DNA of 64,000 bases, taken from Apostichopus japonicus (taxonomy: Eukaryota > Echinodermata > Holothuroidea > Aspidochirotida > Stichopodidae). Under the pieces are notes generated by a model. That model did not search any database. It was given only the letters and a program-made list of their open reading frames with translations, and was not told where the DNA came from. The stretch spans positions 4,795,501 through 4,859,500 of the forward strand of contig NC_092578.1 of the NCBI RefSeq assembly GCF_037975245.1, written 5' to 3'. A program made the position numbers and the translations under genes. This document shows positions 11,192 through 51,337 of this stretch, piece after piece (position 1 is the stretch's first letter; each line of letters starts with the position of its first letter).

Positions 11192-13684
11192 ATGGCCTCA
11201 CCCTGTGACGCCTGCGACAGATTTAGTCAATCAGGTCAGCAACTTACAGAGAATTTAAATCAGAAGAAAGTGCCAAAGGGCCAACAGTTTTTCTTCAAAG
11301 CACTTCAGAAGCAGAAGTTGGAGATTGATCTAGGAGGAAATTGCAAGGAGGCGTTTACTTTTGATGAAGCTAACAGGAGGTATTTGTCGCGTTATTTTCC
11401 AGCTCTTGACAAAACGGTTTACTGTTGTCCACCGGTAGTTGAGTACGAATATCCAGAGGAACCTTCCGATGTCATCGAAGAGGCAGGGGATGGGTCGCAT
11501 GCATCCTCCGTAGACCGGGACTATGGCACCCTGAAAAGAAAGAGGAAAGGTCAGCTCGCGGAGGAAATGATCATAGTCCAGTTCTGGACAATGTTAAAAA
11601 AATATCAAATCCCATCGTTTATTATTCATGGATATCCGTGGAAAGCCAAATACATCAAAAATCTCACCAAGCTCTCCGAATCATTTCAGAAACTTTCTCC
11701 GAAAGAAGGTGAAATTGATTTATTGATCTCTATCCCAGGCCAGTGTATAATAGTGATGGAAGTGAAAGCAGTCAGTGATGTTAGTGAAGATAGAAATATA
11801 ACCGGCGTGGTCAGCAAAGCCTTTTCGCAATGCGGGAAGACTTTCGACTTCTTATCAATGATAATTTCTGATCTTTATGATGGCGGCGGCGGCAGTCTCC
11901 AAGTACCTATCATCAAAACAGTTGCTGTACCAAACTGTGAACGCGTTTCAGCGGAAAGACTATACTGCCAATCATGTTTCACACATATCGTTACATCGGA
12001 TGATCTGGTGAATGCTGATGTCTTGTACAGCTGGTTTCTGCAACTGTTGAAACAGTGTTCCAGCGAACTGGAATCCTCTCAACATGATCTTAACAGCCAC
12101 GTGGGTCTAATCGGACGATTAATCAGTCCAGCATCTTTAATCCAAATCAGGACGATACCGGATTCCATAAGGAGGACCGTATCTCAAATTACAAGTAAGG
12201 ATGAATCAGATCAGACAATATGGCGCCAATTAAATCCTTCGCAACTCTCTGTGGTCCTTCGGCAAGAAAAGTTGCTTTGGATAACGGGTGTACCAGGGAG
12301 TGGGAAGACAATTTTGGGGTTGTACAAAGCTGATGAAATAGTAAGTGATTGTTGTGCTTCAGGTGGTGAAAGACGACCGCTGAGTAGTCAAGCCGAGGAG
12401 AGAAATACCGACGGAGGGGATACTTCCGTCAAGGGATGCGTTTTATATGTCATTAATGGATTCTCACCTCCGTTCGCTCGTAGTCGTAGTTGCCTTTTAG
12501 AGACATACAGAGCAAAAATCACAAAATTATTGACCAATGAGGTAGACGACACCTGTGAAGTATTTATAAAAGATTCTTCTGACCTGGTCGACTGTGGAAT
12601 CGAGCGACACAGTTTGGATAAGTGTCAAAACTTACCACATTTGATTGCCAAACTACAGGACAAACACGCCGGTAAGGTACTCCACATCATCATAGAGGAG
12701 AGCCAAATGCTACTTAAACAGGTCGATGTTGAACAGTTCGAAATGGACTGGAAAGATTGTGTTGACGATAAAAGACTAGGTAATGTATGGATAATTCAGA
12801 GTCCATTTATCACCGGTACAGATTCACGTCGTGGCTCATTGCCCGGCTTCCGAATGGTACATCTCGATCGAATCATGAGAATGTCAAAACAGAACGTAGA
12901 CTTTGTCAATATTTTCTTAGATAAGAAGTACAAACTCGGCCACGCAGTGACTGGGAATCGGCCGATAATCTACCGAATGAGGTGTATCTGTAAGGACAGC
13001 TGCGTTGATGCATCATATCAGTGTTTCGTGTGCCATGTAATGCGCATCCTATGGATGTTCCATACATCCATGGTAGAACAAGGGGTGCTTAGGAAGGAAT
13101 TATTAGACCACCATGAACTGGCATTGAAAGATGCAGTTTTAATATCATTAGACGAGCAACGCATTGCAACATCCATGTTGACCATCTTTGATCCGCTGAT
13201 ACCCTTTTCCGTAAACGAATATCCGGAGGAAGGAACCAATCGCATCATATTGTCGTCAGTACGTCATTTCACTGGTTGTGAGAGTTCAATCGTGTTTGTG
13301 GATTTGAACAGTGCGTTTTACGATGACTGCTATGAGATGGAATGTTTGACCAGGACATTAGGGCAGTTGGTCATGTTAGACGGTGGTTGTTTCGATGAGA
13401 AAGTGGCAAAATATGCAGAGAGTGTTATGCGATTACAAAACGCTGCAGATAACGGTGTTGCGGAAATTAGGGAGATTGAACCATCTACTACAGACATGAA
13501 AACATTAAAGGAATTATACATTAAATATCTGGAGCATGAAAAGGCAAGGTTGCGAGAAAAGATTGCGGTAGCATCGAGTGACGGTTTCCTTCATAGAGTT
13601 AACGAAGCTCAAAGTCAAATTGAGAAACTAACGAAGATACAAAATGATGCCCAAGTTTGGTTAGACGGGCAGAAAAATACTTGA
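11192..13684 (+). CDS. gene A: NERD-like nuclease / SF1 helicase fusion protein
   Basis: An intact single-exon frame of 830 codons. It starts at the first ATG of the conserved MASPC start shared by all three copies and ends at TGA. The N-terminus has a CxxC motif and a conserved CPP..EY..PEEP segment. Residues about 115-240 look like a NERD-type PD-(D/E)XK nuclease: an acidic helix (AEEM), D176 in GEIDLL, E190-x-K192 in MEVKAV, then a KAFSQC motif. Residues about 345-740 show SF1 helicase motifs: a Q-motif (LNPSQLSVV), Walker A GVPGSGKT at 366-373, Walker B IIIEESQ with E502-E503, VWIIQ, MRMSKQN, and a motif VI CLTRTLGQ with R721. A Cys cluster (CICK...CFVC) lies between motifs IV and V. The C-terminus ends in a predicted coiled coil. 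Genes B and C are diverged paralogues downstream. An AATAAA follows at 13835. The domain calls are from motifs. The cellular role is unknown; nucleic-acid processing or defence is inference. Confidence 0.85.
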   Translation: MASPCDACDRFSQSGQQLTENLNQKKVPKGQQFFFKALQKQKLEIDLGGNCKEAFTFDEANRRYLSRYFPALDKTVYCCPPVVEYEYPEEPSDVIEEAGDGSHASSVDRDYGTLKRKRKGQLAEEMIIVQFWTMLKKYQIPSFIIHGYPWKAKYIKNLTKLSESFQKLSPKEGEIDLLISIPGQCIIVMEVKAVSDVSEDRNITGVVSKAFSQCGKTFDFLSMIISDLYDGGGGSLQVPIIKTVAVPNCERVSAERLYCQSCFTHIVTSDDLVNADVLYSWFLQLLKQCSSELESSQHDLNSHVGLIGRLISPASLIQIRTIPDSIRRTVSQITSKDESDQTIWRQLNPSQLSVVLRQEKLLWITGVPGSGKTILGLYKADEIVSDCCASGGERRPLSSQAEERNTDGGDTSVKGCVLYVINGFSPPFARSRSCLLETYRAKITKLLTNEVDDTCEVFIKDSSDLVDCGIERHSLDKCQNLPHLIAKLQDKHAGKVLHIIIEESQMLLKQVDVEQFEMDWKDCVDDKRLGNVWIIQSPFITGTDSRRGSLPGFRMVHLDRIMRMSKQNVDFVNIFLDKKYKLGHAVTGNRPIIYRMRCICKDSCVDASYQCFVCHVMRILWMFHTSMVEQGVLRKELLDHHELALKDAVLISLDEQRIATSMLTIFDPLIPFSVNEYPEEGTNRIILSSVRHFTGCESSIVFVDLNSAFYDDCYEMECLTRTLGQLVMLDGGCFDEKVAKYAESVMRLQNAADNGVAEIREIEPSTTDMKTLKELYIKYLEHEKARLREKIAVASSDGFLHRVNEAQSQIEKLTKIQNDAQVWLDGQKNT

Positions 13685-13834
13685 GAAGTTTCATGTTTAG
13701 AAATGTCTAATTTCAAGTAAATACCGTTTTAGACAGAATGCCATGTAACATAGATAGTGTAGAATTTATTTGCATTGCAACTGATATATTGCATATTTCT
13801 ATAACCAGTCTGAAAATTGACTGAACCTTTATGG

Positions 13835-13840
13835 AATAAA
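13835..13840 (+). terminator. polyadenylation signal of gene A
   Basis: AATAAA about 150 bases after the gene A stop codon. A second AATAAA lies near 13916. Either would give a short 3' UTR. Confidence 0.55.
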
Positions 13841-14112
13841 CCAAGGGCAGATCAATGATGTTGCAGTGAAGGGGGCTTTGGCCCCCTGGGGTCGTTGGAG
13901 CGGAATCTCATGTGGGAATAAATTAAAACTTCGAATTTCCAAATGATGCATTCAATTAAGTATATATATTAAATTTAAAAATAATTAAAATTGTGGCAAT
14001 AAATACTCTTGATTTGTAAAAAAGTGCCTCATTTGAACGCATTCCGCCCCCGACTGACGTTGGCCCTCGCCCACGAATCTTTGCACACGCCACTGCATAT
14101 GGACGTGAGTAG

Positions 14113-14714
14113 TTAATCCCAGTGGCGTCGCCAAGGGGTGGCCCTGGGGAGGAGGGGGGCACGTGACCTCCCAAAACAAAATCGTGCCCCCAGGTCCCCC
14201 CAGAGGAGACTTGTAGTGTCAAAAAGAATACTCAAACAAAAACTTTTTACAAAGGGCGAAACGTATTATCTTCATCAGTGAAACTTCTTTCCACCGACCA
14301 TGACAATAACCAGTTGTTTTCTCACTAACAAGGTCACATAGGCTTAAACTTCACCACTACCCTGCATGAAATTCAGTTTGATCTTTCAACACTATAATTT
14401 AAATACATTATCAAAGCAAAAGTGTTTAATTCCATGTTTTGTATAAATTTCCTATCCGTCTCAATCTAAAAACATAAATATCGACAGACTAAGCCCGATA
14501 ATTCTTGAACATAAAGTTACTTCAAGTTGCAAAATAAGACAGCAGATTGCATCTAAGGACCCTTAATTAATCAACAATTTCTCACCCCCTCCTTTTAGAT
14601 CCCTCCCCCAGGACGGCATTCACAAATAAACACTTTGCCCCTCTAATGAAGTGCTCTGCCCTCCCTGTGCCCCCCCCCCCCCAGATTGAAATGTCTGGCG
14701 ATGCCACTGGTTAA
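14113..14714. mobile_element. TTAA-flanked MITE-like element
   Basis: The ends CCAGTGGCGTCGCCA (14119-14133) and TGGCGATGCCACTGG (14696-14710) form a 15-base inverted repeat with one mismatch. TTAA lies just outside the right end and two bases outside the left end. TTAA targets are typical of piggyBac-like elements, so this may be a non-autonomous member. It has no coding capacity. Only its right part (from the equivalent of 14169) is present in the second spacer copy, at 19066-19600. Confidence 0.55.
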
Positions 14715-14752
14715 TTCGGGGCTGTGATTGACCCCACAGTACGTTTACTGGG

Positions 14753-15068
14753 AGAGATGTAACTAATTTTGAAGTCATTTCAGTGTTTTGGTAGTCGTCT
14801 TTGTTTTAAGGATGGTTGTTAAATGGACCATATATCTGTCATGTCCTCCCAGGAACAATTATTTTGCCCAAATAGAAATTGTAGTAGAACTGAACGGTTA
14901 AGCTGTTTCGTCACACGGCAAGCCAAACAGGACAAATAAAATTGTCCAGATGGCTCTATAAAATTCGGGCCGTCTTTCCGACAACACTTATGATACTGGG
15001 GCAGTGCATGAAGTCCGTTGACGCCGGGCATAACAAACCGGGGGCTGCCCTCGAGTGAAGGAACGTTT
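14753..15068. other. copy-1-specific segment with a small minus-strand ORF
   Basis: Present between CTGGGAG and GTTTGGTGGTCACC in spacer 1, while the second copy (near 19650) joins these flanks directly. It holds a 70-codon minus-strand frame (15031-14819), with Cys pairs and without low-complexity bias. I do not recognise a family. It could be an insertion in copy 1 or a deletion in copy 2. Confidence 0.5.
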
Positions 15069-15469
15069 GGTGGTCACCTTATTGCAAGCTTGATCTCGAT
15101 ATATACCTATAAATGATAATTTCGCTAATTCTCTAGTCTTTTGGCTTTAATTGTTACTGAACTGTTTATAGCTTGGAAGAGATATATTCAATACAATTAG
15201 GCATAGCATACCATCTCAATACTTGTGTTTCGGGTTTATCTTTATCGGGACTTTGTAGCAGATATGGTAGACATCTCTCTCTCTCCCCCCCCTCCAGTCA
15301 CCCCTGCCCCAACCGTGTAATTGAATGAAAATATTAGTTAATAATATTGTATGTCACGGAGTTTACTCGGAGGCAATCACTGATCATTGATAACTATATG
15401 CGATACAAAAATGATACAAAAAAACACTATCACTAAATGTCATCAGTATTGATCCCAATGTCTACCACT

Positions 15470-15628
<159 letters not shown>

Positions 15629-15924
15629 AAAATATACCACGTGTACTCCAACGAAAAAATACAAAACCAATTTAAAAAAAAACAGGGTCACAGTAAGTTG
15701 ACTTGACGGGTACGAAATAAGACATATTATTTCAAACAGGGGAACCTTCCTCAGCAAAACCGTAAGGGTAAATGAAAAACTTAGCCTACAAATAAAATAC
15801 CATAAACAACGTTATCAATAACATTGTCACAATAAAAGCGTCTTAGGAGATATTACATGATTTATGGAAGGTTTCATGGTAGAGTAGTCCAAGGTTTTTG
15901 TTAATACCTATTTACCTACCAAAT

Positions 15925-16195
15925 GTAACTTGGTCTCCAGGATCCAATTCAGTTTAGCTTCATTACGTTTTGATGATATGAGGGTGTATGTTTGAGGTTA
16001 TATATAGACTGATTGAGGAGATTAAAAGTGTTCAGCAACTGGGAAACGTGGGAAATTGTCTCGAAGTGATATTTTGTGATTGTTCAAACGTACACGGAAT
16101 TCGGTGCTCGTTTGATCAACATACAAACCATTATCACATAAATATTGCAAATATCGCATACATATGGACGTTAAAACAAATATACCTGTGTACTT
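15925..16195 (-). mobile_element. Penelope-like GIY-YIG endonuclease remnant (copy 1)
   Basis: On the minus strand, 16195 to about 16025 encodes a peptide ending in LYVDQTSTEFRVRLNNHK, then PVAEHF. This has the spacing of the GIY-YIG endonuclease core (Y-V-x-Q-T, R, N-N-H-K) seen at the C-terminus of Penelope-like retroelements. A second frame at about 15975-15925 reads KRNEAKLNWILETKL, like the conserved segment that follows the core in those elements. The two pieces are out of frame and the usual G before QT is D, so the copy is dead. No reverse transcriptase is visible nearby. Confidence 0.6.
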
Positions 16196-17387
16196 AATTC
16201 TGTCATGCATGGCACCTCATAGGCACATCGGTTATGTAAAGATAGTCCAAAGATTCATAAGATAGGGTAAATTATCTCATAATGAGTCATATTGAAAATT
16301 GACTTGACGTTTAGGGCTAAAGTCCAAATGGAAAGCTACGCACGTACACCCTTGTATGCTACGTACAGCACATGAGTAGGTAGAACTACTGATATAAGCC
16401 TACCAACACCAGCAAAGTCTGTACCTCCGACATAATTGAATCCCTATAACACAATGCCAAGTTGACTGTTTCATGTTTTCATGTTTATTATTTGTTCCTT
16501 ATGGACCGGGTCACCGAATATTTCAACAACACAACAACCATACCTACCCTCTAGTCTTTAAGTCGTGGTTTTATTTCGGAAATGTGCTTTTTGTGAGGAT
16601 GTGATAACCATACCAGTCACCGTGGTGAGGATACGCCGGAGAGGTACGATTTAGTGTCTCTGTGAGTTGAAGCAATTTTTTTTATGGGCTTAGAATTCTT
16701 TTGGCAGAGGATCTCTGTTCGTTAAAATTAATAATATATTTGTTAAGAATTCGTTTCTAACTGGTATGTTGCATGCCAATCATGCCAAGTTCCCTAAATG
16801 AATTGAAGTGTACAAGAAGTAACAAACATATCATGTCGATTATAATCATAGCGGAATGTAATTCTGAGTAGGGCGGTACGTGACAGTTTCATTGACAGAG
16901 TGACTCATTGTTGTACTGTAAGCAGTTATCCATTGGCTAATCGTACATCGCCCAAGCAGTATTTCGATAATGATAATGATGGCCTTTTCGTTCACACATG
17001 CTCTACAGTATCTGCCTGTTTTCATTATTTCCTACCTAAAAATGAAAGTTATGAAACAGTATGTAGATGCTAGACCCCTCTAAACCTTATAGGACACATA
17101 TAGGCCAGTTGCCACCATCATACACAATGAGCACCACCCCTCACTGAGAAAATGTAAAGGTAAGGTCAAAATACAACTGGGGCTATAGTAGCAAACTTTG
17201 GTTATTGGTTTAGGAACTCTAGAATTTCAAACAGGACATGTAACATCATCAGCTTATTGATTTGCAAGATAATTATTTATGTGATTTACATTGCAAAAAT
17301 TAATATGCTGTGCATGTGGTGCATGGATACAACAGACCCCCCCCCCCCACCATTTCCTGTTCATCATAGTGAATAACAAAATGATGC

Positions 17388-17400
17388 TATATATATATAA
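17388..17400 (+). promoter_or_regulatory. candidate TATA box of gene B
   Basis: TATATATATATAA 118 bases before the gene B ATG, at the same relative place as in gene C. Confidence 0.35.
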
Positions 17401-17505
17401 CAAATTCCAACCTTTAAAAAATAATTTAAAATTTACATTAAGGTTTGACTTTTATCTTTGCATTTCTTGAACAGGTGGTCAGACCGTGACCCTTCTGCGC
17501 TAGCC

Positions 17506-18483
17506 ATGGCTTCACCGTGTGCCCACTGTGGAGATGGTGCTCCCAGCTCAACTAGCTGTATAGAATTGCTCCAGCAAAATGGGGATTCTAAACTACTAGG
17601 ACGTATTCGAGAGAGAGGTACAATTCATATTGATTTTGGTGCAGGACACAGGGAACATCTCAGTTTTGACGATGCTAACGAAAGATACGTGACTCATCAC
17701 TTTCCACAATCTGATGAAAGAGTTGTGCACGCTTGTCCTCCTGTATATGAATATGTTCATCCCGGAGAACCACCAGATATCATAAAGGATTCAGAACAGG
17801 GTGCAGAGGTACCATTTTTGAAATTTAACTATGATACTTTGCAAAGAGAGAGGATGGGAGAGGTGGCAGAAGAAATTGTACTGCGGATGTTTTTGAAAAT
17901 GTTTGAAAAGCATAAGATATCAGCTTTCATTGTTCACGGATACAATTGGAAAACCAGTTATTTAAAAAAACTGTTAGATATACAACCAAGTTTATCGAAG
18001 TCGTTCAAGAAGCTGGGAATAAATGAAGGTGAAATTGATTTACTTATTTCAATCCCCAAAAAATGTTTAGTAGTTGTTGAGGTCAAAGCCATAAACCATA
18101 AGAATAATTTTACAAACGTCGTGAGAAAAGCGTTTGCTCAGTGTGATAAGACGTCTAATTTTTTGTCAACGGTTGCAAGTGATCTCTATGGTAACAAGAA
18201 CATTTGGCTGTTGAAAGTCGTGGCATTGCCATCGAGTTGCAGAGATACTTTGACGGAATTTAATTATTGTCAAGCATGTTCTCGTCACATTATCACCGAG
18301 GAGGATTTGAATACTGCTAACACATTACACGATTGGTACAAGACCCTAATTGATTTACATAAAACCGAGTTAGATGACTCCCTTTTTGATAATTGTCTAC
18401 ACAAAAGATTAATCGGAAGGTTGATAGGTCCCTATTCACTCACGGAAGTGAAACCAGCCAAAGACGAGAAAACTCCGGAATGA
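17506..18483 (+). CDS. gene B: truncated paralogue, nuclease domain only
   Basis: A 325-codon frame from the family's MASPC start to a TGA at 18481. The ATG lies in a good context (AGCCATGG). It retains the CxxC start, the CPPVYEY segment and the complete NERD-like nuclease motif set (GEVAEEIV, D178 in GEIDLL, E192-x-K194 in VEVKAI, KAFAQC). It is very close to gene C in sequence. At the stop, gene C has AGA where B has TGA, so one base change separates it from read-through. It could be expressed as a free-standing nuclease or could be a pseudogene; the sequence alone does not decide. It belongs to duplication copy 1. Confidence 0.6.
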   Translation: MASPCAHCGDGAPSSTSCIELLQQNGDSKLLGRIRERGTIHIDFGAGHREHLSFDDANERYVTHHFPQSDERVVHACPPVYEYVHPGEPPDIIKDSEQGAEVPFLKFNYDTLQRERMGEVAEEIVLRMFLKMFEKHKISAFIVHGYNWKTSYLKKLLDIQPSLSKSFKKLGINEGEIDLLISIPKKCLVVVEVKAINHKNNFTNVVRKAFAQCDKTSNFLSTVASDLYGNKNIWLLKVVALPSSCRDTLTEFNYCQACSRHIITEEDLNTANTLHDWYKTLIDLHKTELDDSLFDNCLHKRLIGRLIGPYSLTEVKPAKDEKTPE

Positions 18484-19065
18484 CCACAAAAAGAATCGAG
18501 GACAGTTGCCGAATCAATTCAGTGGACTGTTCACCAAATCACAGAAGAACACGGTACAGCCGCCAAGATTATGTCACGGTGGTATCAGTTAACTCCCGAA
18601 CAACTAGCCGTCGATTTTAAGGACCCTCAGCTGCTGTGGCTAAGTGGTCAACCAGCCAGTGGGAAGACGGTTTTAGCTTTGTGGAAAATTGACAACATTT
18701 TAGAATCTTGTAATAACGAGACTTTGCCCAGATTTGCCGTAGAAGTAAATACATCTACAGCCTTAACAGATCCCGTTTCCCCACCAAACGCCGAAGTGCT
18801 TTCAGCATCAACGTCTTCAAAGGCATTTACCAATATAGTAAAAACACCGTCAACAAACTTCCCCACCTTGAGAGCAAGAAATGCAATATCGCTATTGGCT
18901 CCTGTAGTTCCTGCCAATTCGACATCAATAGAAGTTAGTACAGCATCGTTGTCAGTCACAGATTGTGCCAATTTGTCATCTGGAACAGCATGCCCAGTAA
19001 GACTGTCAGGCACCGCGAAGCAGTATTGCCATCGGGTGCAGATTCCGTGATGCAGTCATCGGGTG
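18484..19065 (+). pseudogene. gene B: remnant of the helicase part
   Basis: After the TGA the same frame stays open to 19050. It carries the Q-motif (LTPEQLAV) and Walker A GQPASGKT, then a Ser/Thr/Ala-rich linker longer than that of gene C. Near 19020-19060 the bases match a segment of the gene C linker (C near 23414) but in a shifted frame. All later helicase motifs (Walker B to VI) are missing: at about 19065 the gene sequence switches to spacer DNA equivalent to 14169. The helicase is therefore non-functional in this copy. Confidence 0.8.
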
Positions 19066-20092
19066 TCCCAAACCAAAATCGTTCCCCCAGGTCCCCCCAG
19101 AGGAGACTTGTAGTGTCAAAAAGAATACTCAAACAAAAACTTTTTACAAAGGACGAAACGTATTATCTTCATCAGTGAAACTTTTTTCCACCGACCATGA
19201 CAACCAGTTGTTTTCTCACTAGCAAGGTCACATAGGCTTAAACTTCACAACTACCCTGCATGAAATTCAGTTTGAACTTTCAACACTCTAATTTAAATAC
19301 ATTATCAAAGCAAAAGTGTTTAATTCCATGTTTTGTATAACTTTTCTATCCGCCTCAATCTAAAAACAAAAATATCGGACAGACTAAGCCCGAAAATTCT
19401 TGAACATGAAGTTACTTCAAGTTGCAAAATAAAGCAACAGATTGCATCCAAGGACCCTTAATTAATCACAAATTTCTCACCCCCTCCCATTAGACCCCTC
19501 CCGCAGGACGGCATTCACAAATAAACATTGTGCCCCTCTAATGAAGTGCTCTGCCCTCCCTGTACCCCCCCCCGATTGAAATGTCTGGCGATGCCACTGG
19601 TTAATCCGGGGCTGTAATTGACCCCACAGTACGTATACTGGGAGGTTTGGTGGTCACCTTATTGCAAGCTTGATCTCGATATATACCTATAAATGATAAT
19701 TTCGCTAATTCTCTGGTCTTTTGGCTTTAATTGTTACTTCACTGTTTATAGATTGGAATAGAAATATTCAACAATGAGGCATAGCATACCATCTCAATAC
19801 TTGTGTTTCGGGTTTATCTTTATCGGGACTTTGTAGCAGGTATGGTAGACCCCCCCTCTCTCTCTCCCTCGCCCAGTCACCCCCTGCCCCAACCGTGTAA
19901 TTGAATGAGAATATTAGTTAATAATTTTGTATGTCACGGAGTTTACTTGGAGGCAATCACTGTAACATTTCCGTATGTTGATGAAACAAATAAGAGTCAT
20001 TGATAACTATATGCGATACAAAAATGCGTCTTTTACTGGCAAGAAAACACTATCAATAAATGTCATCAGTATTGATCCCAATGTCTACCACT

Positions 20093-20245
<153 letters not shown>

Positions 20246-20559
20246 GACGAAACGTGTACTCCAACGAAAATTAAATACAAAACCAATAATAAAAAACAGG
20301 GACATAGTAAGTTGACTTGACGGGTACGAAATAAGACATTTTATTTGAAACAGGGGAACCTTCCTCATCAAAACCGTAAGGGTAAATGAAACACTTACAA
20401 ATAAAATACCATAAACAACGTTGTCAATAACAACGTCACAATAGAAGGGTCTTAGGAGATATTACATGATTTATGGAAGGTTTCATGGTAGAGTAGTCCA
20501 AGGTTTTTGTTAATACCTATTTACCTACCAAATGTAACTTGGTCTTCAGGATCCAATTC

Positions 20560-20860
20560 AATTTAACTTGTTTAGGTTTTTCAGTGGATGATATGCCCTG
20601 CAGATGATATGAGGGGTGTATTTTTTGAGGTTATTTATAGACTGATTGGGGGGAGATTAAAATGTTCAGCAACTGGGAAACATGGGAAATTGTCTCGAAT
20701 TGATATTTTGTGATTCTTAAAACGTACACGGAATTTGGTGCCCGTTTGATCAACATACAAACCATTATCACAGAGATATTGCAAATATCACATACATATG
20801 GACGTTATAACATAAATACATGTGTACTTAATTCTGTCATGCATGGCACCTCATAGGCAC
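20560..20860 (-). mobile_element. Penelope-like GIY-YIG endonuclease remnant (copy 2)
   Basis: Duplicate of the remnant at 15925-16195. The minus strand reads LYVDQTGTKFRVRFKNHK and later PVAEHF, slightly closer to the GIY-YIG consensus (QTGT) than copy 1. No long frame is left. Confidence 0.55.
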
Positions 20861-22013
20861 ATCGGTTATGTAAAGATAGTCCAAAGATTCATAAGATAGG
20901 GTAAATTATCTCATAATGAGTCATATTGAAAATTGACTTGACGTTTAGGGCTAAAGTCCAAATGGAAAGCTACGCACGTACGCCCTTGTATGCTACGTAC
21001 AGCACATGAGTAGGTAGAACTACTGATATAAGCCTACCAACACCAGCAAAGCCTGTACCTCCGACATAATTGAATCCCTTTAACACAATGCCAAGTTGAC
21101 TGTTTCATGTTTTCATGTTTATTATTTGTTCCTTATGGACCGGTCACCGAATATTTCAACAACACAACAACCATACCTACCCTCTAGTCTTTAAGTCGTG
21201 GTTTTATTTCGGAAATGTGCTTTTTGTGAGGATGTGATAACCATACCAGTCACCGTGGTGAGGATACGCCGGAGAGGTATAGGCTTAGTGTCTCTGTGAG
21301 TTGAAGCAATTTTTTTTATGCGCTCAGAATTCTTTTGGCAGAGGATCTCTGTTCGTTAAAATTAATAATATATTTGTTAAGAATTCGTTTCTAACTGGTA
21401 TGTTGCATGCCAATCATGCCAAGTTCCCTAAATGAATTGAAGTGTACAAGAAGTAACCAACATATCCTGTCGATTATAATCATAGCGGAATGCAATTCTG
21501 AGTAGGGCGGTACGTGAAAGTTTCATTGACAGAGTGACTCATTGTTATACTGTAAGCAGTTACCCATTGGCTAATCGTACATCGCCTAAGCAGTATTTCG
21601 ATAAGATAATGATGGACGTTTCGTTCACACAGGCTTTATCTGCCTGTCTTCATTATTTCCTACCTAAAACTGAAAGTTATGAAACCGTATGTAGATGCTA
21701 GACCCCTCTTAAACTTATAGGACACATAGGCCAGTTGCCACCATCATACACAATGATCACCACCCCTCACTGAGAAAATGTAAAGGCAAGGTCAAAATAC
21801 AACTGGGGCTATAGAAGCAAACTTTGGTTATTGTTTTAGGAACTCTAGAATTTCAAACAGGACATGTAACATCATCAGCTTATTGATTTGCAAGATAATT
21901 ATTGATGTGATTGACATTGCAAAAATTAATATGCTGTGCACGTGGTGCATGGATACAACAGACCCCCCCCCCCACCATTTCCCTGTTCATCATAGCGAAT
22001 AACGAAATGATGC

Positions 22014-22025
22014 TATATATATATA
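22014..22025 (+). promoter_or_regulatory. candidate TATA box of gene C
   Basis: TATATATATATAA-type run 123 bases before the gene C ATG. A pyrimidine-rich tract ending in CGAACAG at about 22073-22100 could alternatively be a 3' splice site of a leader intron. Confidence 0.35.
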
Positions 22026-22136
22026 ACAAATTCCAACCTTTAAAAAATAATTTAAAATTTACATTAAGGTTTGACTTTTATCTTTGCATTTCTCGAACAG
22101 GTGGTCAGACCGTGACCCTTCTGCGCTACAGTAGCC

Positions 22137-24674
22137 ATGGCTTCGCCGTGTGCCCACTGTGGAGGTGCTTCTAGCTCAACTAGCTGTATAGAATTGCTCC
22201 AGCAAAATGGGGATTCTAAAATACTAGGAAGTATTCGAAAGGTATCCGAAAAAATAATTCATTATGATTTTGGCGCAGGCCACAAGGAACATCTCAGTTT
22301 TGACGATGCTAATGAAAGATACATGACTCGTCACTTTCCACAATCTGATGAACCAGCTGTGCACGCTTGTCCTCCTGTATATGAATACGTTCATCCCGGA
22401 GAACCAACAGATATCATAGAGGATTCAAATCCAAAAAAAAAAGTTCAATATTTGAACTTTAACTATGATACGTTGCAAAGAGAGAGGATGGGAGAGGTGG
22501 CAGAAGAAATTGTACTGCGGATGTTTTTGAAAATGTTTGAAAAGCACAAGATATCAGCTTTCATTGTTCACGGATATAATTGGAAAACCAGTTATTTAAA
22601 AAAACTGTTAGCTTTACAACCAAGTTTATCAAAATCGTTCAAGAAGCTGGGAATAAATGAAGGTGAAATTGATTTACTTATTTCAATCCCCCAAAAATGT
22701 TTAATAGTTGTTGAGGTCAAAGCCATCAACCATAAGAATAATTTTACAAACGTCGTGAGAAAAGCGTTTGCACAATGTGGAAAGACGTCTAAATTTTTGT
22801 CATCGGTTGCAAGTGATCTCTATGGTAACAAGAACATTTGGCTGTTGAAAGTCGTGGCATTGCCGTCGGGTTGCAGAGATACTTTGACGGAATTTAATTA
22901 TTGTCGAGTATGTTCTCGTCACATTATCACCGAGAAGGATTTGAACACTGCTAACACATTACACGAATGGTACAAGACCCTAATCGATTTACATAAAACC
23001 GAGTTAGACGACTCTCTTTTCGATTATCTTCTACACAAAAGTTTAATCGAAAGGTTGATAGGTACTGCTTCACTCATGGAAGTGAAACCAGCTAAAGACG
23101 AGAAAACTCCAGAGAGACCACAAAAAGAATCGAGGACAGTTGCCGAATCAATTCAGTGGACTGTTCACCAAATCACAGAAGAACATGGTACAGCCGCCAA
23201 GATTATGTCACGGTCACTGTGGTATCAGTTAACTCCCGAACAACTAGCCGTCGATTTTAAAGACCCTAAGCTGCTGTGGCTAAGTGGTCAACCAGCCAGT
23301 GGGAAGACGGTCTTAGCCTTGTGGAAAATTGACAACATTTTAGAAACTTGTAATAACGAGCCTTTGCCCAGATCTGGCGTAGAAGTAAATACATCTACAG
23401 CCTTAACAGATATCGCAGTATCGCCATCGGGTGCAGATGCTGCAGTTGAGTCACCAGCGGCAGATTGTACATTGAAGGCATCGAGTGCAGATTGTATGGG
23501 TACGTCGTCGACTGCTGGTTGTAGTGCAGAGATCCCATTTGGTTCTGTGGTTTACATCTTTGCCGGTATGACGTCAACTTGTCTGTCGCAAGTCCTAGAA
23601 GGTAAATACCATAATAGAGAGACCACGGGGTGCAAGGTTGTCGTTACATCTCTTCGTAAGTTTTTTTTATCTGAGAATGCAAAGACCACAAGTTCATTTC
23701 ATACGCTGGAAGAATTACCAGTTTTGATCAGCGTCCTACTAGCAAAGCATAAAAATGAAATTATTCATATTTTTATAGATGAATCCCCATTTCTTTTAGA
23801 GGGGCTTAACCATGATAAGTTTGAGGAAGAATGGAGAACCATCTTTGATAGCGAGAGATTAGGTTATGTGTGGTGCATACAAAGTACATACTACAACGAG
23901 TTAGACTCCGGTACTAAAGCTCCTTCCAACTTTCATATGATGCACCTAACATGTGTAATGAGATTGACCAGACAAAACATAGAGTTGGCAAACTTGCTTC
24001 TGAAAGACATAAATATTGACAATAAATTTATTAACAAACCTTTTAGGTCTGGTCACGCTGTAGCAGGAACTTGTCCAGTAATGTATAGAATAAAATGCGT
24101 CTGTGAATGGCCAAAGGATTCATTTATTTGCAAAGATTGTTACGACAAAAGAATCACTTTACTGCTCCAACACGTTTTGAAGGACTTTCAACTTAATACG
24201 CAACTGGCATCGCTTCCTAAGGGTCAGTTCGGAATTAGAGATGCTGTTTTGATTTGTATGGAACTGAAAAAAGTTGCAGACTTACTTGGGCATATCCCAA
24301 CAGAAATTCATTTTGCTGTGGAACGTAACACAGTACCTGGCAAGAATTGTATAACAGTTTGTGAAATCAATACCTTTAGGGGGTGTGAACGATCACTTGT
24401 AATTGTGGACTTCCAACACGCTGCCTGTGACGATTTTAAAATGAAAGAAGCATTAACAAGGGCTTTGGGACAGTATGTGATATTAGACTGTGGTACTTTC
24501 ATTCATGATTGTTATGAGGAACAGATCAAAAAATTGAAATCTGCCGAAGAGAAGGGCATGATTAAGATAAAAGAAATTGAACGTTCTCCAGAGGAACTCA
24601 GTAAACTAAACTCTACTATTATTAGGCATGCAACAAACAGAGGAAAAACCTCAATGGATCTTACAAAGTATTAA
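22137..24674 (+). CDS. gene C: NERD-like nuclease / SF1 helicase fusion protein
   Basis: An intact single-exon frame of 845 codons, ATG in context AGCCATGG, ending at TAA. Layout: CxxC start; CPPVYEY..PGEP segment near residues 75-95; nuclease with GEVAEEIV, D179 in GEIDLL, E193-x-K195 in VEVKAI and KAFAQC; a CRVC pair; Q-motif LTPEQLAV; Walker A GQPASGKT at 384-391; a Ser/Ala/Thr/Asp-rich linker at about 415-470 with repeated A-D pairs; Walker B FIDES with D548-E549; VWCIQS; MRLTRQN; a CVC...CKDC cluster; motif V-like TFRGCERS; motif VI ALTRALGQ with R775. All residues expected for ATP hydrolysis are present, unlike Walker B of gene A. The 3' flank is an AT repeat with an inserted transposon and no close AATAAA. 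The biological role is unknown. Confidence 0.87.
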   Translation: MASPCAHCGGASSSTSCIELLQQNGDSKILGSIRKVSEKIIHYDFGAGHKEHLSFDDANERYMTRHFPQSDEPAVHACPPVYEYVHPGEPTDIIEDSNPKKKVQYLNFNYDTLQRERMGEVAEEIVLRMFLKMFEKHKISAFIVHGYNWKTSYLKKLLALQPSLSKSFKKLGINEGEIDLLISIPQKCLIVVEVKAINHKNNFTNVVRKAFAQCGKTSKFLSSVASDLYGNKNIWLLKVVALPSGCRDTLTEFNYCRVCSRHIITEKDLNTANTLHEWYKTLIDLHKTELDDSLFDYLLHKSLIERLIGTASLMEVKPAKDEKTPERPQKESRTVAESIQWTVHQITEEHGTAAKIMSRSLWYQLTPEQLAVDFKDPKLLWLSGQPASGKTVLALWKIDNILETCNNEPLPRSGVEVNTSTALTDIAVSPSGADAAVESPAADCTLKASSADCMGTSSTAGCSAEIPFGSVVYIFAGMTSTCLSQVLEGKYHNRETTGCKVVVTSLRKFFLSENAKTTSSFHTLEELPVLISVLLAKHKNEIIHIFIDESPFLLEGLNHDKFEEEWRTIFDSERLGYVWCIQSTYYNELDSGTKAPSNFHMMHLTCVMRLTRQNIELANLLLKDINIDNKFINKPFRSGHAVAGTCPVMYRIKCVCEWPKDSFICKDCYDKRITLLLQHVLKDFQLNTQLASLPKGQFGIRDAVLICMELKKVADLLGHIPTEIHFAVERNTVPGKNCITVCEINTFRGCERSLVIVDFQHAACDDFKMKEALTRALGQYVILDCGTFIHDCYEEQIKKLKSAEEKGMIKIKEIERSPEELSKLNSTIIRHATNRGKTSMDLTKY

Positions 24675-44400: not shown

Positions 44401-47400
44401 TATTCAGTACCAACCATAAACAAAAGTTACGGTTTTATTTATCGTATTGGGAGGGTACCTGACGTGCACTGAATAAGGTTATATGGAGACAAAGTTGTCC
44501 TCTTATCTGTTTGCTCAGCCAATGGTTGATAAAAATTTTAATATCCATTTAACCCCTCCTGCCCTCTAACCTCTTCTCAGATCTTGCAATTTTCTGTAAG
44601 CCTAATCTGCCAAAAAAGAATTGAAGCACTGCGCCCTCCCTCCCCCCCCCCCACCCTCCACTCAGGTCAATTGGGTAGGAAGAAGAAATGGGTGATGAAG
44701 AAGTGGGTCAACGCGGGTGAAGTGCGAAAAAATTACCACTTTTGGCAGGTTAGGTGTATAGGATAGTGCATGATTCGCAAGGAGACATGTGAGTGTCGTT
44801 TTCTGTAAATACTCAAACAAGTAAGTTATGTTGCAGAAAACCTAGCAGCCCTTTCTCTTAAAAAGTGTGTTGCATTTAGAATTGTGAACCAACTTAAAGA
44901 GAAAGAAGTTATTCACGATTTTCAGATTCCCAGGGAGCGATTCCTACCATTTGAGGTCCTGCAGTTGTCTAAGCTTCGCTCGCCATTCATAGCTCGGTTT
45001 TTGGGCGCCACAGCAGAGCGGAGCTCCCTCTATCTGCACATGGAGCTAGTGGATAACGCATTTCAACTGGAGTATATCGCCAAGGACGGCTCCATGTGGT
45101 TGACCGACCAAGGGCTCATAGTCAAGATTCTTCACCAGCTGTTGGGTGCTTTGGACTGTTTGCAGAAAAGTGCGGTGATTCATAGAGATCTCACATGTGA
45201 GAAGAAGCAATTTGCATGTTTTTAATATTTCATTTTATTGGGGATGAACCTCTTCCTGGCCTACTTTAAATATAAGATATTTGGCAACACTGGCATGGTA
45301 GAATAGGATATGGGCTTCTTCCCTGAAACTTATTACACCATTCGTTGTAATTTGTACGTAATTCTGCACGTTCCTGTTAGCTGTCTTAAGTAAATTTTCC
45401 CAACTGGTAGATATTTAATAGCAATGGCAATACAAATTTAATTGGTTGTAACTAGTCATTAGTTTCATTACAAACTAAAGTAGAAAAAGTTGGAAAGTTT
45501 GACATGTATATTGTCCTTGTTATTAATATTATGTGCTAAAATTATGTATTAAACTTGTTAAGTGCCGTTGCCAAGGAATTTTTTTAATTGAAGTTAGTTC
45601 AATTGAATGAAGAGTTAATGAAAACAATCTCAGAGTGTGTCTTGGTTTGATAAATGCAATCTCATTAGGAATAACGCTGTATTTCTTGACATTTTTTTCA
45701 GAAGTAGGGACCAAATTTAAAGACAAAAAATTGCTCTAAGGGAAAACCAAGTGCGTCTGTTACGAAAGAACACTGATGGTGTCGATAGTTCAATTGTCAA
45801 TATAAGCAAGCGTTATTGCATCTTACCAATCAAAATAACGAAAGTATATAAAACACTTTCGATCAGGATATGACATTTAGTAAATTGCTTTGCTCAATAG
45901 CTTGTTTTCTATTTGCTTTCGTTTTGTGTACAGGTCGTAACGTTCTATTAACTGCGGCCCAAAGAGTGAAGGTCATCGACTTCAATTTGGCCGTTCCTTC
46001 TCCGTACGAACAGAACACCATGCCCGTAGGGGATATCCACTATCTTGCTCCGGAAGTTTTAGGTGAGAACCACTCCCACGGTTTTCTGAATCACCACCAC
46101 GGTGGCGACCTATCCACATAAATCGTATTCGAGCTGTGAAGGCAGAATTGCGTGCAATTGGGGTTAAAAGAGAAATTTTGGGGTTTGATCTAAATTGCTA
46201 GTGAAGAAGTCAATATTATACATACCTTCTTCTATCCTCCAGCTTATTCTCTCACCATCTGTTATTAGTCAAAGTCTGTAAGCAAACCCCTGCACACCAA
46301 TGGACCATGGAATGCACATGGGACATTTTCAAAAATGATTAAATAACTGGAATCCGTGATATGGAATGCACAGAGGATCCCTTTTGTCGGAAGATTTAGA
46401 GTCACCTATTTGATTTTCCTCGCCGCAAATAAAAGTCACAGTTCCCACCACTTGCCCTGTAAGTCTGTGCCCCCTTCCCACCAATTGAACCCTCTTCTGT
46501 CACCCCTGTTACGGTCTAACAAAAGCAGAACACAGTAGAAGCAATTTGTATTGTTTACCCTTTGACTGTAAATTTGAAAACTATTTGTATGTGCTTAACT
46601 GGTGAAACATTTCCTACTAATCCTACTGGAAAATTCCCCTACTACAATTTGAAAAGTGTCTAAAGTAAAAAAATATGTTTTGAAGTATTTTAAAATGCAA
46701 GTGCTTTCCGATATTTACAAAGGAAATTTCTTATTCTGTTTCGTCTAATAAGTATTACTAACTTCGCATTGATTTCTGTGAGTAAATAATTTTATGGAAA
46801 CTTGGTATTAGTTTCATTTATCTAAAATCATGTCCGGACGAACTGTACTGCTAACTCCTATGCGCAAAGTTGGGGGGGGGAGGGGGCAGGGGGTAGTGGG
46901 GATGTTTAAAAAGTGTATGTAGGCTGCTTCCCCACCATTGCAACATTTCCTTATTAAAACAAAACCCTGTATCTGATAGAAAAAAAACAAAGGATACATG
47001 AATTGTTATATTCATGAGTGAATTTCACTTTTTTAATCTATCACTCTGTCTATTTTCAAGACGGTGTCGAGCAGCTGACGTGTAAGATTGACCTGTGGTC
47101 TGCTGGGATTATCATTATTGCTCTACTTAGAAGCTTGCCTCAGCTAGATGACTGTGAGAAGATGGCTATTACAGGCTTCCATCCTCTCCATTGCTGTGAG
47201 TTTCTGTTTTATTTCTACGACTTTCAAGTATTTTATGTGTCTTTAGAGGTTACTCTCAGTTTGATGATCTAATGGACGGTAATTCTAAAATACAAACGGT
47301 AATAACCATCGAAACATAGTTTGTAAATAAATGTCCAATCTGGTCAGTATTGACGACAGTCAAACAGTTTCATATCTTGAGGTCTAAAGGGTTTTATGGA

Positions 47401-50400
47401 AAGAAAATCTACAGGTATAATTTATCTCTTAGGCCTCTTACTGCTTAATGAGTAAAAATAAAATAAAACTGTTAGCAAACTGCTTATCCACTAGAGAGCA
47501 TGTGTAGGAGAATGTGTAAAAGAAAGTTGGCCGGACGTTTTGATCCTAGCAGGATCTTCTTCAAAGGCTAAGTGACACTTGACACTTGTCATTTAGCCTT
47601 TGAACAAGATCCTGCTATGATCGAACGTCAGGCCAACTTTCTTTTACACATGCTTAATGAGTAAATAGACAAAGGAAAATTGAGTGGGAGATTATAAATA
47701 AACTGGAAAAGAACAACAGAATTTGGGGCTAGAGAGAGATTCGAACCAATTATTAACTGGTTTACATTCCAGCTCTAGCAAAAAATATCTTTGCTATTTT
47801 CGAGTTGCTTTTAAATTTTTTAGAATTTAAGATGTGTTTCACAAGTTTTGACATACAAAAACTATAGAAAGGGCAGCCCCATTTAATGATGGTTGACGCA
47901 ACAGTCTAATTTTTGTTTGTCATATGTTCATATTGTAATGCTGCGTTTGGTGAATACACACAGGTGGTCTTGTACAGTCTTTTTAAAGACATCACTATTG
48001 CCTCAAAATTTTACTACGCTAAAATTTGCTTTAAGTTTTTAAAGATAGTGGCCTGGAATTTATTTTACCCCCTTATGCTAGTATCATATATTGAAGAGGG
48101 TTTACTTGAAGAAAGTTAATAGTGAATGTCACAGCTGTGGAAATTCCTCTCGTAGCAGTGGTTTGAGTCTTGAATGGGGCAAAGCTTGTAGCATGTTTTA
48201 TGGGGCAAAAATTGGTGACCTGTTTTATGCAACAGACCACTTGTGAAGCAATCTAGATTTGTAAAATGTAATACCAACAACATACAAACATACCTACCTC
48301 ATATACAGCATCAAAAAAAAACTTGTTCTTGGCAGGGTTGAGGGGGGGTGGGAATGGGGGGGAAGGGAGATGATGTACCCACCTTGAAGAGTTTGTATAA
48401 CCTACATACAAGATCACCTGCAATCCTGTGCTGAGAAACTTGATCTCCTCTGTTGTAGGTCATCTCCGGCACTGCCATCCAAGACTTCTCAATATTCTGG
48501 AACTGATTCTTCAGCCTGATCAAAGAGACAGGCCAGCACCACAAGACCTGGCAAACCATTGTGTATTTCAGGATGGTAGGCATTGCTATTAAACCTATTT
48601 TTTTTTTTGTCTTCTTCTTTTTTTTGTCTTTTTTTTTGGCCTTTTGTTGATGGTGTCTTACTCAACCGTCGTACTTGGCATGCCGATAACAAGTACAAGA
48701 ATGCATTTGTGTTTAATAGAGGTCAAATTATCATTTATCATCCATAGAATTTCAGGTCTCTGCCTCTTCATTGGGACTGTTTTTAAACAAAAGAAATTTA
48801 CCTTTTTGTAAGACAATGTTTAGGTGCTTCATTATTGTTGTAATTGCAAACAAATCAGTGACTGTATGTTTTCCTGTAGCCTGCGGAATACACAATGGCC
48901 AAGAAATAAAACATGAATATGTATTTATGACAAATATTGCTTTGAAAATATTAGAAAAAATTGAGAAAGATTTCTTATTGGTTATTCAGGATCTCTTCTT
49001 ACTTTGGTCGGAATAGTTTATTGGACTGGACTGAGGTCCATGGCTCTGTGCCTCTATTAGTTCATACTTTAGCTATAAATATTTTAAAATCCGAGCTAAG
49101 TAAGGAACTTTCTTCCAACCCTGCTGATCTTTGCGATATTGTTACGGAGGTGTATATTCAGTAGGTGACATTGAAATCTGCTAATAGGGTAAGGAATCTA
49201 AACTGAGGTATTTTTTGGGTCTCCCTCCCAGATATTCATGAGATTCTGGAAGATTGGCCGGCACGTCCTGATGATGGAGTGGATGATAGCCCTGATTGGT
49301 TCCCTTTGGATGACCACTGCAGCGATGATGATAATGATGGTGATGACGAAGACGGCGACGATAATGATGGTGATGATGTTGAAGCTACCATCCCACCTGT
49401 TAGTATGCAAAAGAGTTCACCTGAGCCTCATCCTTGCCTGACTTCTCCATCAGAGCAGCCATCATCATCGTTGGACCAGTCTGAGGCCTTAGTACAGATA
49501 CCTTCCACATCACACACTGTAGGTGATAACTCTAACAATGGTCCAAGGTATGGCAGAGGTACGAACCCTTGTCGTCAAGGTGACGGCCTGTCCAGAGGTG
49601 GTGATGACGACTCTCAAGGGGTGAAGAGGGGAAGGGGGACAAGAGGGAAAGATAGAAAGGTCAGAGTCCAGATAGCTGCCTCTTTCAGAGATGATACAAC
49701 AAAACACAGACAAGAGCAAGGGACAGGCCCTTCCAGCACTGAAATAGATTGTGGGGTAGGCGATGAGGCCACCACCGGCCAGGAGTGTCGTAATGACCCT
49801 TCACTGGTCGACGAAAGACCCATTACCCAGCAAACGCATGCAGCGGAATATCGCACACCTGGCGAGTTCCTAGGGGCAGAGAGAGGGGCCCTTGGGGCAG
49901 AAAGAGGGGCCCTAGGGGCAGAAGGAGGGGCAGTAGGAGGGCTGTTAGGAGCAGAAGGAGGGGCCCTAAGGACAGCAGGTGGGGCTCGAAGGCACCATGG
50001 AAAGCACCACCCAAATGTTTCCATGGGCAGCTTGGCGGACATCTTCGGACCACTTGAAGTGAACGAGATTACACAGACGAGCCGACTTGACCGAGGTAGA
50101 GAAGGCCATAACGTCCTACGTGACCACCACCAGCAGCAGGAAGAAGTGTCAGACAATCCTACTTCACAGGCTACTGGATCTAATGACTTTAAGGATCTCT
50201 GCGACGGTCCATACTGCTATCCGGTGGATTGGCTTTACGAGAATGATGACCCTCAGGCGACAGTGGAGGAAAGAGATCAAAGTGGAAACAGATCGACTGC
50301 TATGTCTTCCCCCAAAATGAGTACCGGTGGGAGCTCTTTCCGTGGTACCAGCCAACAGGAAGCGTCCCTAGAAATGGGTAAAGCCATCTTTTCTTATGAA

Positions 50401-51337
50401 TTGAACCCTTTATTAAATAAATTTAAAAAATATGTACCAGAGAGTTATTGCAACAAAATAGCTAAAATGACATAATTGGATGGTGGTAGGAATGTCTTCT
50501 CAACCAATTAAAAAGAAAAAGAAAAAAAGAGTGTGTATATTGTGCCCTCACCACAGGCAAGAAGTAAAAATGGATGTGAGCTCAGGTCTAAAAATTTATT
50601 TTAAAATCAGTAGTACATTGTTGTACCCAATGTAAGCAATTAACTAATTAAATGAAGGAAGCTAACTAACTATGTTCTATTCAAATAAAAAGCATATAGA
50701 TATACACTTACACAATTTCAAAAATGTCTATTTGAGTCGAAAGAAAACTGATTTTTTTCGAAATGGAAGTATTATCAAATTTCTTGAAATGATTAAGAAC
50801 CAGAGCAGTTGCTTTCTTTTTGGTTTACTGGTGAGTTATTCATCATTGATTCTCTCGTTTCTCGAAACGAAGAATTTGAGGGCTAATCAGCTTTTGTGTA
50901 ATTTTATTGTTCACTAATACCCCACACTATTGTAGTTCTTAGTAATAAGTTGCCTACTCAGCTGTCATTTGAACAGTTCCGTTTTTTATTTTCCTTTTTT
51001 TCCCCTTTTTTTTGGATGGTGAGTTAAATATAGTATTGCAAAATGCTGCTTAGAGAGTGAAGTTCATAATCAAATGAATCTCAGAGGTTTTCTCCGGATC
51101 GATTATTTGTAATCTTATTCTCGGTAGTACTCCCTCCCGTCAGTTTCGGTAAAAACTTTGGTCCAAACTCTAAAATCTGTTCTCTAAAGTCGATCTTTAT
51201 TTTCTCCATATCCAGACATACTAGTTGGTCAGCTGAGCATCGATACAACAGCGGAATATCAGAATCAGATTCTCTCTCAGTTCAGTAGAGAGAGCAGAGA
51301 CGGTAGAAGTAGTAGCAATAGTAGTAACCAATCGTGA
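38471..51337 (+). CDS. MAP3K8: MAP3K8 (TPL2/COT)-like serine/threonine kinase, 12 coding exons
   Basis: Exons joined by GT-AG sites with matching phases: 38471-38527, 39256-39347, 40082-40250, 41217-41369, 42327-42644, 43736-43873, 44926-45196, 45934-46062, 47061-47195, 48459-48575, 49232-50377, 51216-51337, giving 948 residues and a TGA stop. Start: ATG in context AAACATGG, behind a 3' splice site at 38448 and an in-frame stop, so the 5' UTR is probably spliced. The kinase domain spans about 279-526: G-loop GRGDFG (286-291), K308 in KMASKE, a following IPRERF segment like COT's IPVDQF, HRD 395-397 with N402, DFN 415-417, and APE 438-440. The preceding exon has a VIAFIQRL...GVIFNM stretch resembling COT before its kinase. 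The tail has an Asp-rich tract, GAERGAL repeats and polar sequence. Known members phosphorylate MEK downstream of TLR/TNF receptors. It is about twice the vertebrate length. DFG to DFN is unusual. Exon choice is manual; exons 2-4 are the least certain. Confidence 0.8.
40392..40593. repeat. 104-bp tandem duplication in kinase intron 3
   Basis: Two units starting at 40392 and 40496, both with AGAAGGGTTGGAGGAAGGGG and GGAGAAAGGGAGGGAGAGGG. Purine-rich. Confidence 0.85.
47514..47649. repeat. fold-back inverted repeat in kinase intron 9
   Basis: Arms of about 63 bases (GTGTAAAAGAAAGTTGGCC... and ...GGCCAACTTTCTTTTACAC) match at roughly 90% with only about 8 bases between. This would make a long hairpin RNA in the intron. 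It is probably a foldback-type transposon remnant. Confidence 0.8.

Follow-up and report, generated by a model that had tools for sequence, protein, structure and literature searches.

A lineage-expanded family of predicted nuclease-SF1 motor proteins in an animal genome, with a putative action on foreign nucleic acid

Three paralogous genes in the window, that is the whole 64,000-nucleotide stretch of DNA analysed here (C18:4795501-4859500), belong to an animal protein family for which we propose, with a probability of roughly 0.5 for the statement as a whole, the inferred function included, that it is a lineage-expanded set of ATP-driven nuclease-SF1 proteins acting on foreign nucleic acid. 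The anatomy alone, i.e. a PD-(D/E)XK-type nuclease followed by a two-lobed ATPase of SF1 type with a cysteine-rich insert, is predicted with good confidence from conserved motifs and a structural model, while the defence role in the animal is suggested by the layout and the turnover of the genes.

As claimed in a preliminary description of this DNA, three paralogues lie in the window. Two have long open frames (830 and 845 aa) and one is broken (Table 1); the PD-(D/E)XK-like motif set is indeed found in all three and the SF1 motif series in two, copies 1 and 3, copy 2 ending after motif I. The proteins of copies 1 and 3 are 39% identical, motif II of the former being EE and not DE. Copy 2 holds the nuclease part and motif I, without motifs II-VI; past its TGA the same frame is open to 19050 and similarity to copy 3 is lost after 18771. 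Both pieces of the first duplicated unit are repeated in the second, so that a tandem duplication, which is recent and whose unit starts between copies 1 and 2, accounts for copy 2 as its truncated end. Between residues ~1-325 of copy 2 and copy 3, dS is 0.157 and dN 0.072, i.e. a ratio of 0.46, with 0.30 for the nuclease part; these ratios indicate that one or both lineages evolved under constraint during some of their separate history, which does not amount to evidence of present-day function of copy 2. Each copy of the duplicated unit has a long CTAA/TA microsatellite in the corresponding position (15459-15678 and 20060-20263).

Table 1. Features of the gene array, in positions of the window
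Feature	Position	Strand	Basis
Copy 1, predicted nuclease-SF1 protein, open, 830 aa	11192..13684	+	open frame, motif alignment, profile score
Copy 1, PD-(D/E)XK-like region (GEID 173-176, EVK 190-192, Q213)	11525..12127	+	motifs; strand order by analogy with the L021 model
Copy 1, SF1-type motor (Q351, GSGK 369-372, EE 502-503, R563, C600/C611/C614, GCE 695-697, R721)	12194..13471	+	
Tandemly duplicated DNA unit, first copy (pieces 14169-14754 and 15065-18771)	14169..18771	.	DNA self-comparison
Copy 2, truncated paralogue, ATG at 17506, nuclease part open, TGA at 18481-18483	17506..18483	+	
Copy 2, remnant past the stop, similarity to copy 3 continuing through motif I	18484..18771	+	
Duplicated DNA unit, second copy (19066-19644, 93.4% identical to the first copy; 19645-23411, 91.5% identical)	19066..23411	.	
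Acceptor-like tract preceding copy 3, pyrimidine-rich, ending in ACAG; suggests a 5'UTR intron	22069..22100	+	by eye
Copy 3, predicted nuclease-SF1 protein, open, 845 aa	22137..24674	+	open frame, motif alignment, profile score
Copy 3, PD-(D/E)XK-like region	22467..23063	+	motif alignment
Copy 3, SF1-type motor	23178..24572	+	motif alignment

The three-gene array is present as first described but not isolated. It is part of a family of which protein searches of the whole genome (671,581,487 bases in 35 contigs) recovered at least 27 loci, 22 of them open and 5 broken, spread over 10 contigs, these counts being lower bounds. Each open locus consists of one large frame of 700-1023 aa from stop to stop, with two on C1, two on C2, one on C4, three on C6, one on C7, four on C9, two on C13, three on C15, three on C18 and one on C22, and the broken ones are found, besides copy 2 of the window, at C2:25.242 Mb, C7:16.440 Mb, C7:16.567 Mb and C13:26.180 Mb. 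Chance frames are ruled out by a profile built from 20 members outside the window, which scores copy 3 at 155.8 bits and copy 1 at 136.4 bits against a best of 4.6 bits for 1000 shuffles. In a tree obtained by a quick method with midpoint rooting and in which long branches are flagged, the window pair stands alone on a long branch (length 2.06, support 100), and the two open window genes appear to be a divergent lineage within the family. A contaminant is excluded, the window lying inside a 20.4 Mb contig and its relatives on 10 contigs. The animal nature of the genome, as initially read, is supported by the mitochondrial contig C35 (16,099 bases), whose COX1 contains 11 in-frame TGA and reads with an echinoderm-type mitochondrial code. 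Under the echinoderm/flatworm code, its AAA codons fall at positions we take to be asparagine in other animals, and the protein is presumably that of an echinoderm. Besides, COX1-like pieces with in-frame TGA occur on a second contig (C29:14745-31219) and may represent either a mitochondrial copy that stayed unassembled or nuclear mitochondrial DNA.

Over the 22 open members, the nuclease GxxD, the Q of the Q-motif, the Walker A lysine and the motif IV arginine are invariant, and so are, in the stretch separating motif IV from motif V, two cysteines with an arginine close by. The nuclease [E/Q]xK (E in 9 members, Q in 12), the Q that follows it, the GxE of motif V and the arginine of motif VI are each kept in 21, the exception being in every case L014, and the DE of motif II in 20, copy 1 having EE and L014 HE. 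Motifs Q, I, II, IV, V and VI run in the order of SF1 helicases through the 22-member alignment. The arrangement that defines PD-(D/E)XK nucleases, in which D and (D/E/Q)xK lie on neighbouring strands and a Q in the next helix, is matched by the aligned residues (L014 excepted) and by the strands and helix in the model of L021 described below. L014 itself (C15:877225) is open over 819 aa, with KVS instead of [E/Q]xK, no following Q, HE as motif II, motif V lost and a K in motif VI; degenerate at five motifs, its active site looks decayed or dead despite the open frame.

The structural reading comes from an AlphaFold2 model of L021, a relative and not a window protein, computed from 22 sequences (pLDDT 76.7, pTM 0.82). 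Its N-terminal part comprises a helix (116-142), a strand (147-154), a helix (155-161), a strand (173-180, with D175), a strand (184-190, with E189, K191 coming just after), a helix (199-223, with Q212) and a strand (235-241), which reads as the order of secondary structures expected of a PD-(D/E)XK core. In the motor, a strand (350-355) leads into the P-loop and further strands include 466-472, preceding D472-E473, whereas a second alpha/beta part contains strands 571-575, 616-620, 674-678, 687-694 and 721-729; with motifs I-III in the first part and V-VI in the second, the motor can be read as two RecA-like lobes. The model of copy 1, built from 4 sequences, is poor (pLDDT 40.3) and no fold claim rests on it.

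The groups formed by close copies have two or three members each, mostly neighbours (on C1, C2, C6, C9, C15 and in the window), with one group spanning C1 and C18. In the compared pairs, similarity extends past both ends of the reading frame, L021/L022 being the exception in that their upstream similarity stops ~80 bases short of the frame, so that DNA segments and not transcripts were copied. Retroposition, which had been suggested at the outset, is consequently contradicted for the young copies, as their duplications carry flanking DNA instead of being limited to a transcript; an ancient intron-poor origin, via retroposition or transfer, is possible. The fast local turnover also supposed then is supported by the 5 broken loci out of 27, the neighbouring close copies and omega values of 0.28-0.73 in nine close-copy comparisons, some of which share a member and are not all independent. 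To judge from these sequences, the evolution of the family would be constrained but fast, and would proceed by birth and death of genes rather than by retroposition or as a high-copy transposon.

Regarding the single-exon gene structure, the large coding block is uninterrupted across the family, but acceptor-like ends suggest small upstream exons. By eye, a pyrimidine-rich tract ending in ACAG precedes the ATG of copy 2 by 31 bases and that of copy 3 by 36, similar ends can be seen before or at the start of the large frame in L010, L013, L016, L020, L021, L024 and L058, and some members, e.g. L008, show homology preceding the first methionine, all of which point to such exons. As for the many-exon genes said to flank the array, two of eight flanking frames scanned have Pfam matches, the better one being that of a protein-kinase-like exon (45852-46118; E 1.7e-6, 28.1 bits vs. 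a cut-off of 31.7) and the other a weak PHD hit (E 0.044), and six have none. Elsewhere in the window, the frame at 49207-50472 is long, acidic and repetitive and matches no Pfam family, a tandem pair of ~297 bases, 94% identical, lies at 55188-55785, and ARAGORN finds no tRNA over the whole length of the window.

Database models recognise the family faintly. Over 20 members, the best Pfam E-value is 1.7e-4 (AAA_22), the Pfam hits with scores seen are all below cut-off and many of the matches are to AAA or STAND P-loop models. The cut-off of an SF1 model is not reached in any score seen, UvrD-helicase matching 1 of the 20 members (E 0.00083). For NERD (PF08378), the cut-off of 22.1 bits is not reached by the copy 2 fragment (18.1 bits), copies 1 and 3 have no match at E 1, and NERD is not among the 25 families shown out of the 26 that the 20 members match in Pfam at E 0.1. 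NCBIfam led nowhere (best E 0.0011, orc1/cdc6). In PADLOC, the same 20 members match Nhi in nine cases, AbiO in six, NERD+UvrD in four and the RT-associated NERD-helicase in four, with best E-values of 2.2e-5 for Nhi and 7.2e-6 for NERD+UvrD, over stretches mostly around motif I. Among 10 members looked at in detail, 8 matched at E 0.05 and 2 did not; the NERD+UvrD match clearly spans both nuclease and motif I in L021 only (174-403, E 1.5e-5), that of L014 covering 270-422, and L007, L011 and L014 each have a stretch, within the nuclease part or close to it, that matches an unnamed candidate family. Run against the whole genome at E 1, the NERD+UvrD model has no hit, which speaks against a close kinship, though weak matches in a large search space would also give no hit.

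Among the best 60 of 104 matches of the motor profile to solved structures at E 10, SF1 enzymes (PcrA, helicase IV/HelD, GajB, SMUBP-2 and NAM7) are mixed with mS29, Lon, RFC and further proteins, and the first three matches of the full-length profile are all NAM7 (UPF1; E 0.028-0.052). The nuclease profile gave a single, irrelevant match (E 0.68) and copy 1 alone a pair of matches at E 0.98 and 1.3, also irrelevant. Prokaryotic relatives sought by pattern-plus-tblastn over genome contigs (221 and 54 stretches) and viral ones over viral contigs (111 and 79 stretches) yielded none confirmed; a phage scan with P0001 as sole query found no relative, nor did a plasmid scan with L021 as sole query, apart from one MoxR-type ATPase (E 0.1). 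For the horizontal acquisition envisaged in the preliminary description, these scans brought no prokaryotic or viral relative to light. A phage protein termed NERD in one paper (PMC6630229), used as seed, retrieved sce7726-type and hypothetical proteins, and family searches from a bacterial centre led nowhere. That these proteins work like a nuclease-helicase is fairly well supported; that they are NERD-helicases is a possibility.

The combination of a nuclease and an SF1-type motor in defence is of a kind already known in prokaryotes. Nhi of Staphylococcus epidermidis carries an N-terminal nuclease and then an SF1-type motor on a single chain. The present family resembles Nhi and NERD+UvrD (PADLOC PDLC02372 and PDLC01087) in this order, and Nhi is the PADLOC family most often matched, but it is found in an animal, its frames exceed the 470 and 559 positions of the two models, most members have an extra N-terminal region, a cysteine-rich insert lies between motifs IV and V, and the similarity is mostly at motif I. 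Nhi is reported to be activated by phage SSB (PMC10732053). The kinship with NERD-helicases or Nhi considered in the preliminary description is no more than hinted at by weak PADLOC matches, and is weakened by NERD scores below cut-off and the missing genome-wide hits.

Schlafen proteins of group 3, also found in animals, likewise combine an SF1-type helicase with a nuclease domain at the N-terminus, but the nuclease fold differs from the PD-(D/E)XK type. Kinship with them, also raised earlier, is not supported and membership rejected, PF09848 matching 3 of the 20 members below cut-off (best E 0.019, 14.7 bits vs. 24), over motif I only in L010 and L016, and no AlbA-type SLFN core nuclease family being among the Pfam matches listed. 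Weak PF09848 matches are seen as well in L070 (C15:29275700-29277700), open over 1449 aa, and at C3:17331655, open over 1486 aa. The former (C15:29276112), which resembles a ZNFX1/UPF1-type SF1 helicase, shares with the family a large open frame, SF1 motifs and the genome itself, but has a different motif I and, by eye, no noticeable GxxD...[E/Q]VK in 666 aa. GajB of Gabija, an SF1, UvrD-like enzyme, aligns with positions 22-236 of the 436 of the motor profile (E 0.017-0.018), over motifs I to IV; the nuclease that it works with, GajA, is a protein of its own, unlike the single chain seen here.

Four other explanations have to be weighed. The same architecture could serve housekeeping or germline DNA repair, or a replication fork, in a nuclease-helicase working like Dna2 and expanded by drift, which we deem unlikely: Dna2 does have a nuclease and then an SF1 motor in one chain, with cysteines, and omega is below 1 in young pairs, but Dna2 has its cysteines around the nuclease whereas the invariant ones of the family lie between motifs IV and V, and the number of loci, the deep divergence, the broken copies and omega values of up to 0.73 are unlike a conserved repair factor. 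No Dna2 chain is among the solved-structure matches listed for the full-length, nuclease and motor profiles. Sensors of the STAND/AAA kind, in which a P-loop domain with a nuclease-like domain would signal and not unwind, are given a similarly low probability. The best solved structure for the motor profile is indeed mS29, a non-helicase (E 0.003), and Pfam NPHP3_N matches 5 of the 20 members, with nSTAND and NACHT models matched too; yet the Pfam stretches seen begin at motif I, the motif IV and motif VI arginines, like the motif V GxE, are conserved as in SF1 enzymes, and the L021 model predicts a second alpha/beta part as these enzymes have.

It is improbable that the protein was domesticated from, or is still carried by, a mobile element of which the window copies would be copies: the spread over 10 contigs and the uninterrupted coding block would fit, but close copies are few per group, mostly adjacent, and share DNA beyond the gene, and the eight window frames scanned match no transposase or reverse transcriptase. 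A degenerating family, whose nuclease and motor would be mostly inactive scaffolds, seems just as improbable; the Q in place of E in 12 of 22 members, the KVS of L014, the EE of copy 1 and the upper omega of 0.73 go in its direction, whereas nuclease D and K and the Walker A lysine are kept in 21-22 of 22. QxK is, moreover, an active-site form in Mrr-type nucleases.

With the proposed nuclease-SF1 family acting on foreign nucleic acid, the motor would load on foreign or aberrant DNA or RNA, such as viral replication intermediates, mobile elements or cytosolic nucleic acid, and ATP hydrolysis would move or remodel it, feeding or positioning it for the attached nuclease, which would cut and degrade it. 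Paralogues may differ in target or regulation, leading to rapid birth and death, and the expansion may reflect conflict with viruses or mobile elements. Only tentatively can one go further and regard these proteins as innate-immune effectors destroying invading nucleic acid, derived by ancient transfer from a prokaryotic gene of the NERD-helicase/Nhi type and diversified by an arms race in echinoderm-type animals. Several animal immune proteins have reportedly been traced to bacterial anti-phage systems.

In the open-licence literature covered, and under the wordings used, neither an animal NERD-helicase family nor an expanded animal nuclease-SF1 family with a cysteine insert was found; an earlier description under another name is quite possible. 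If the proposed reading is true, it would represent a new class of effectors, that is a large and fast-turning invertebrate family with the layout of bacterial nuclease-helicases, below Pfam cut-offs wherever scores were seen, whose 22 open paralogues would provide material for testing how such enzymes choose their targets.
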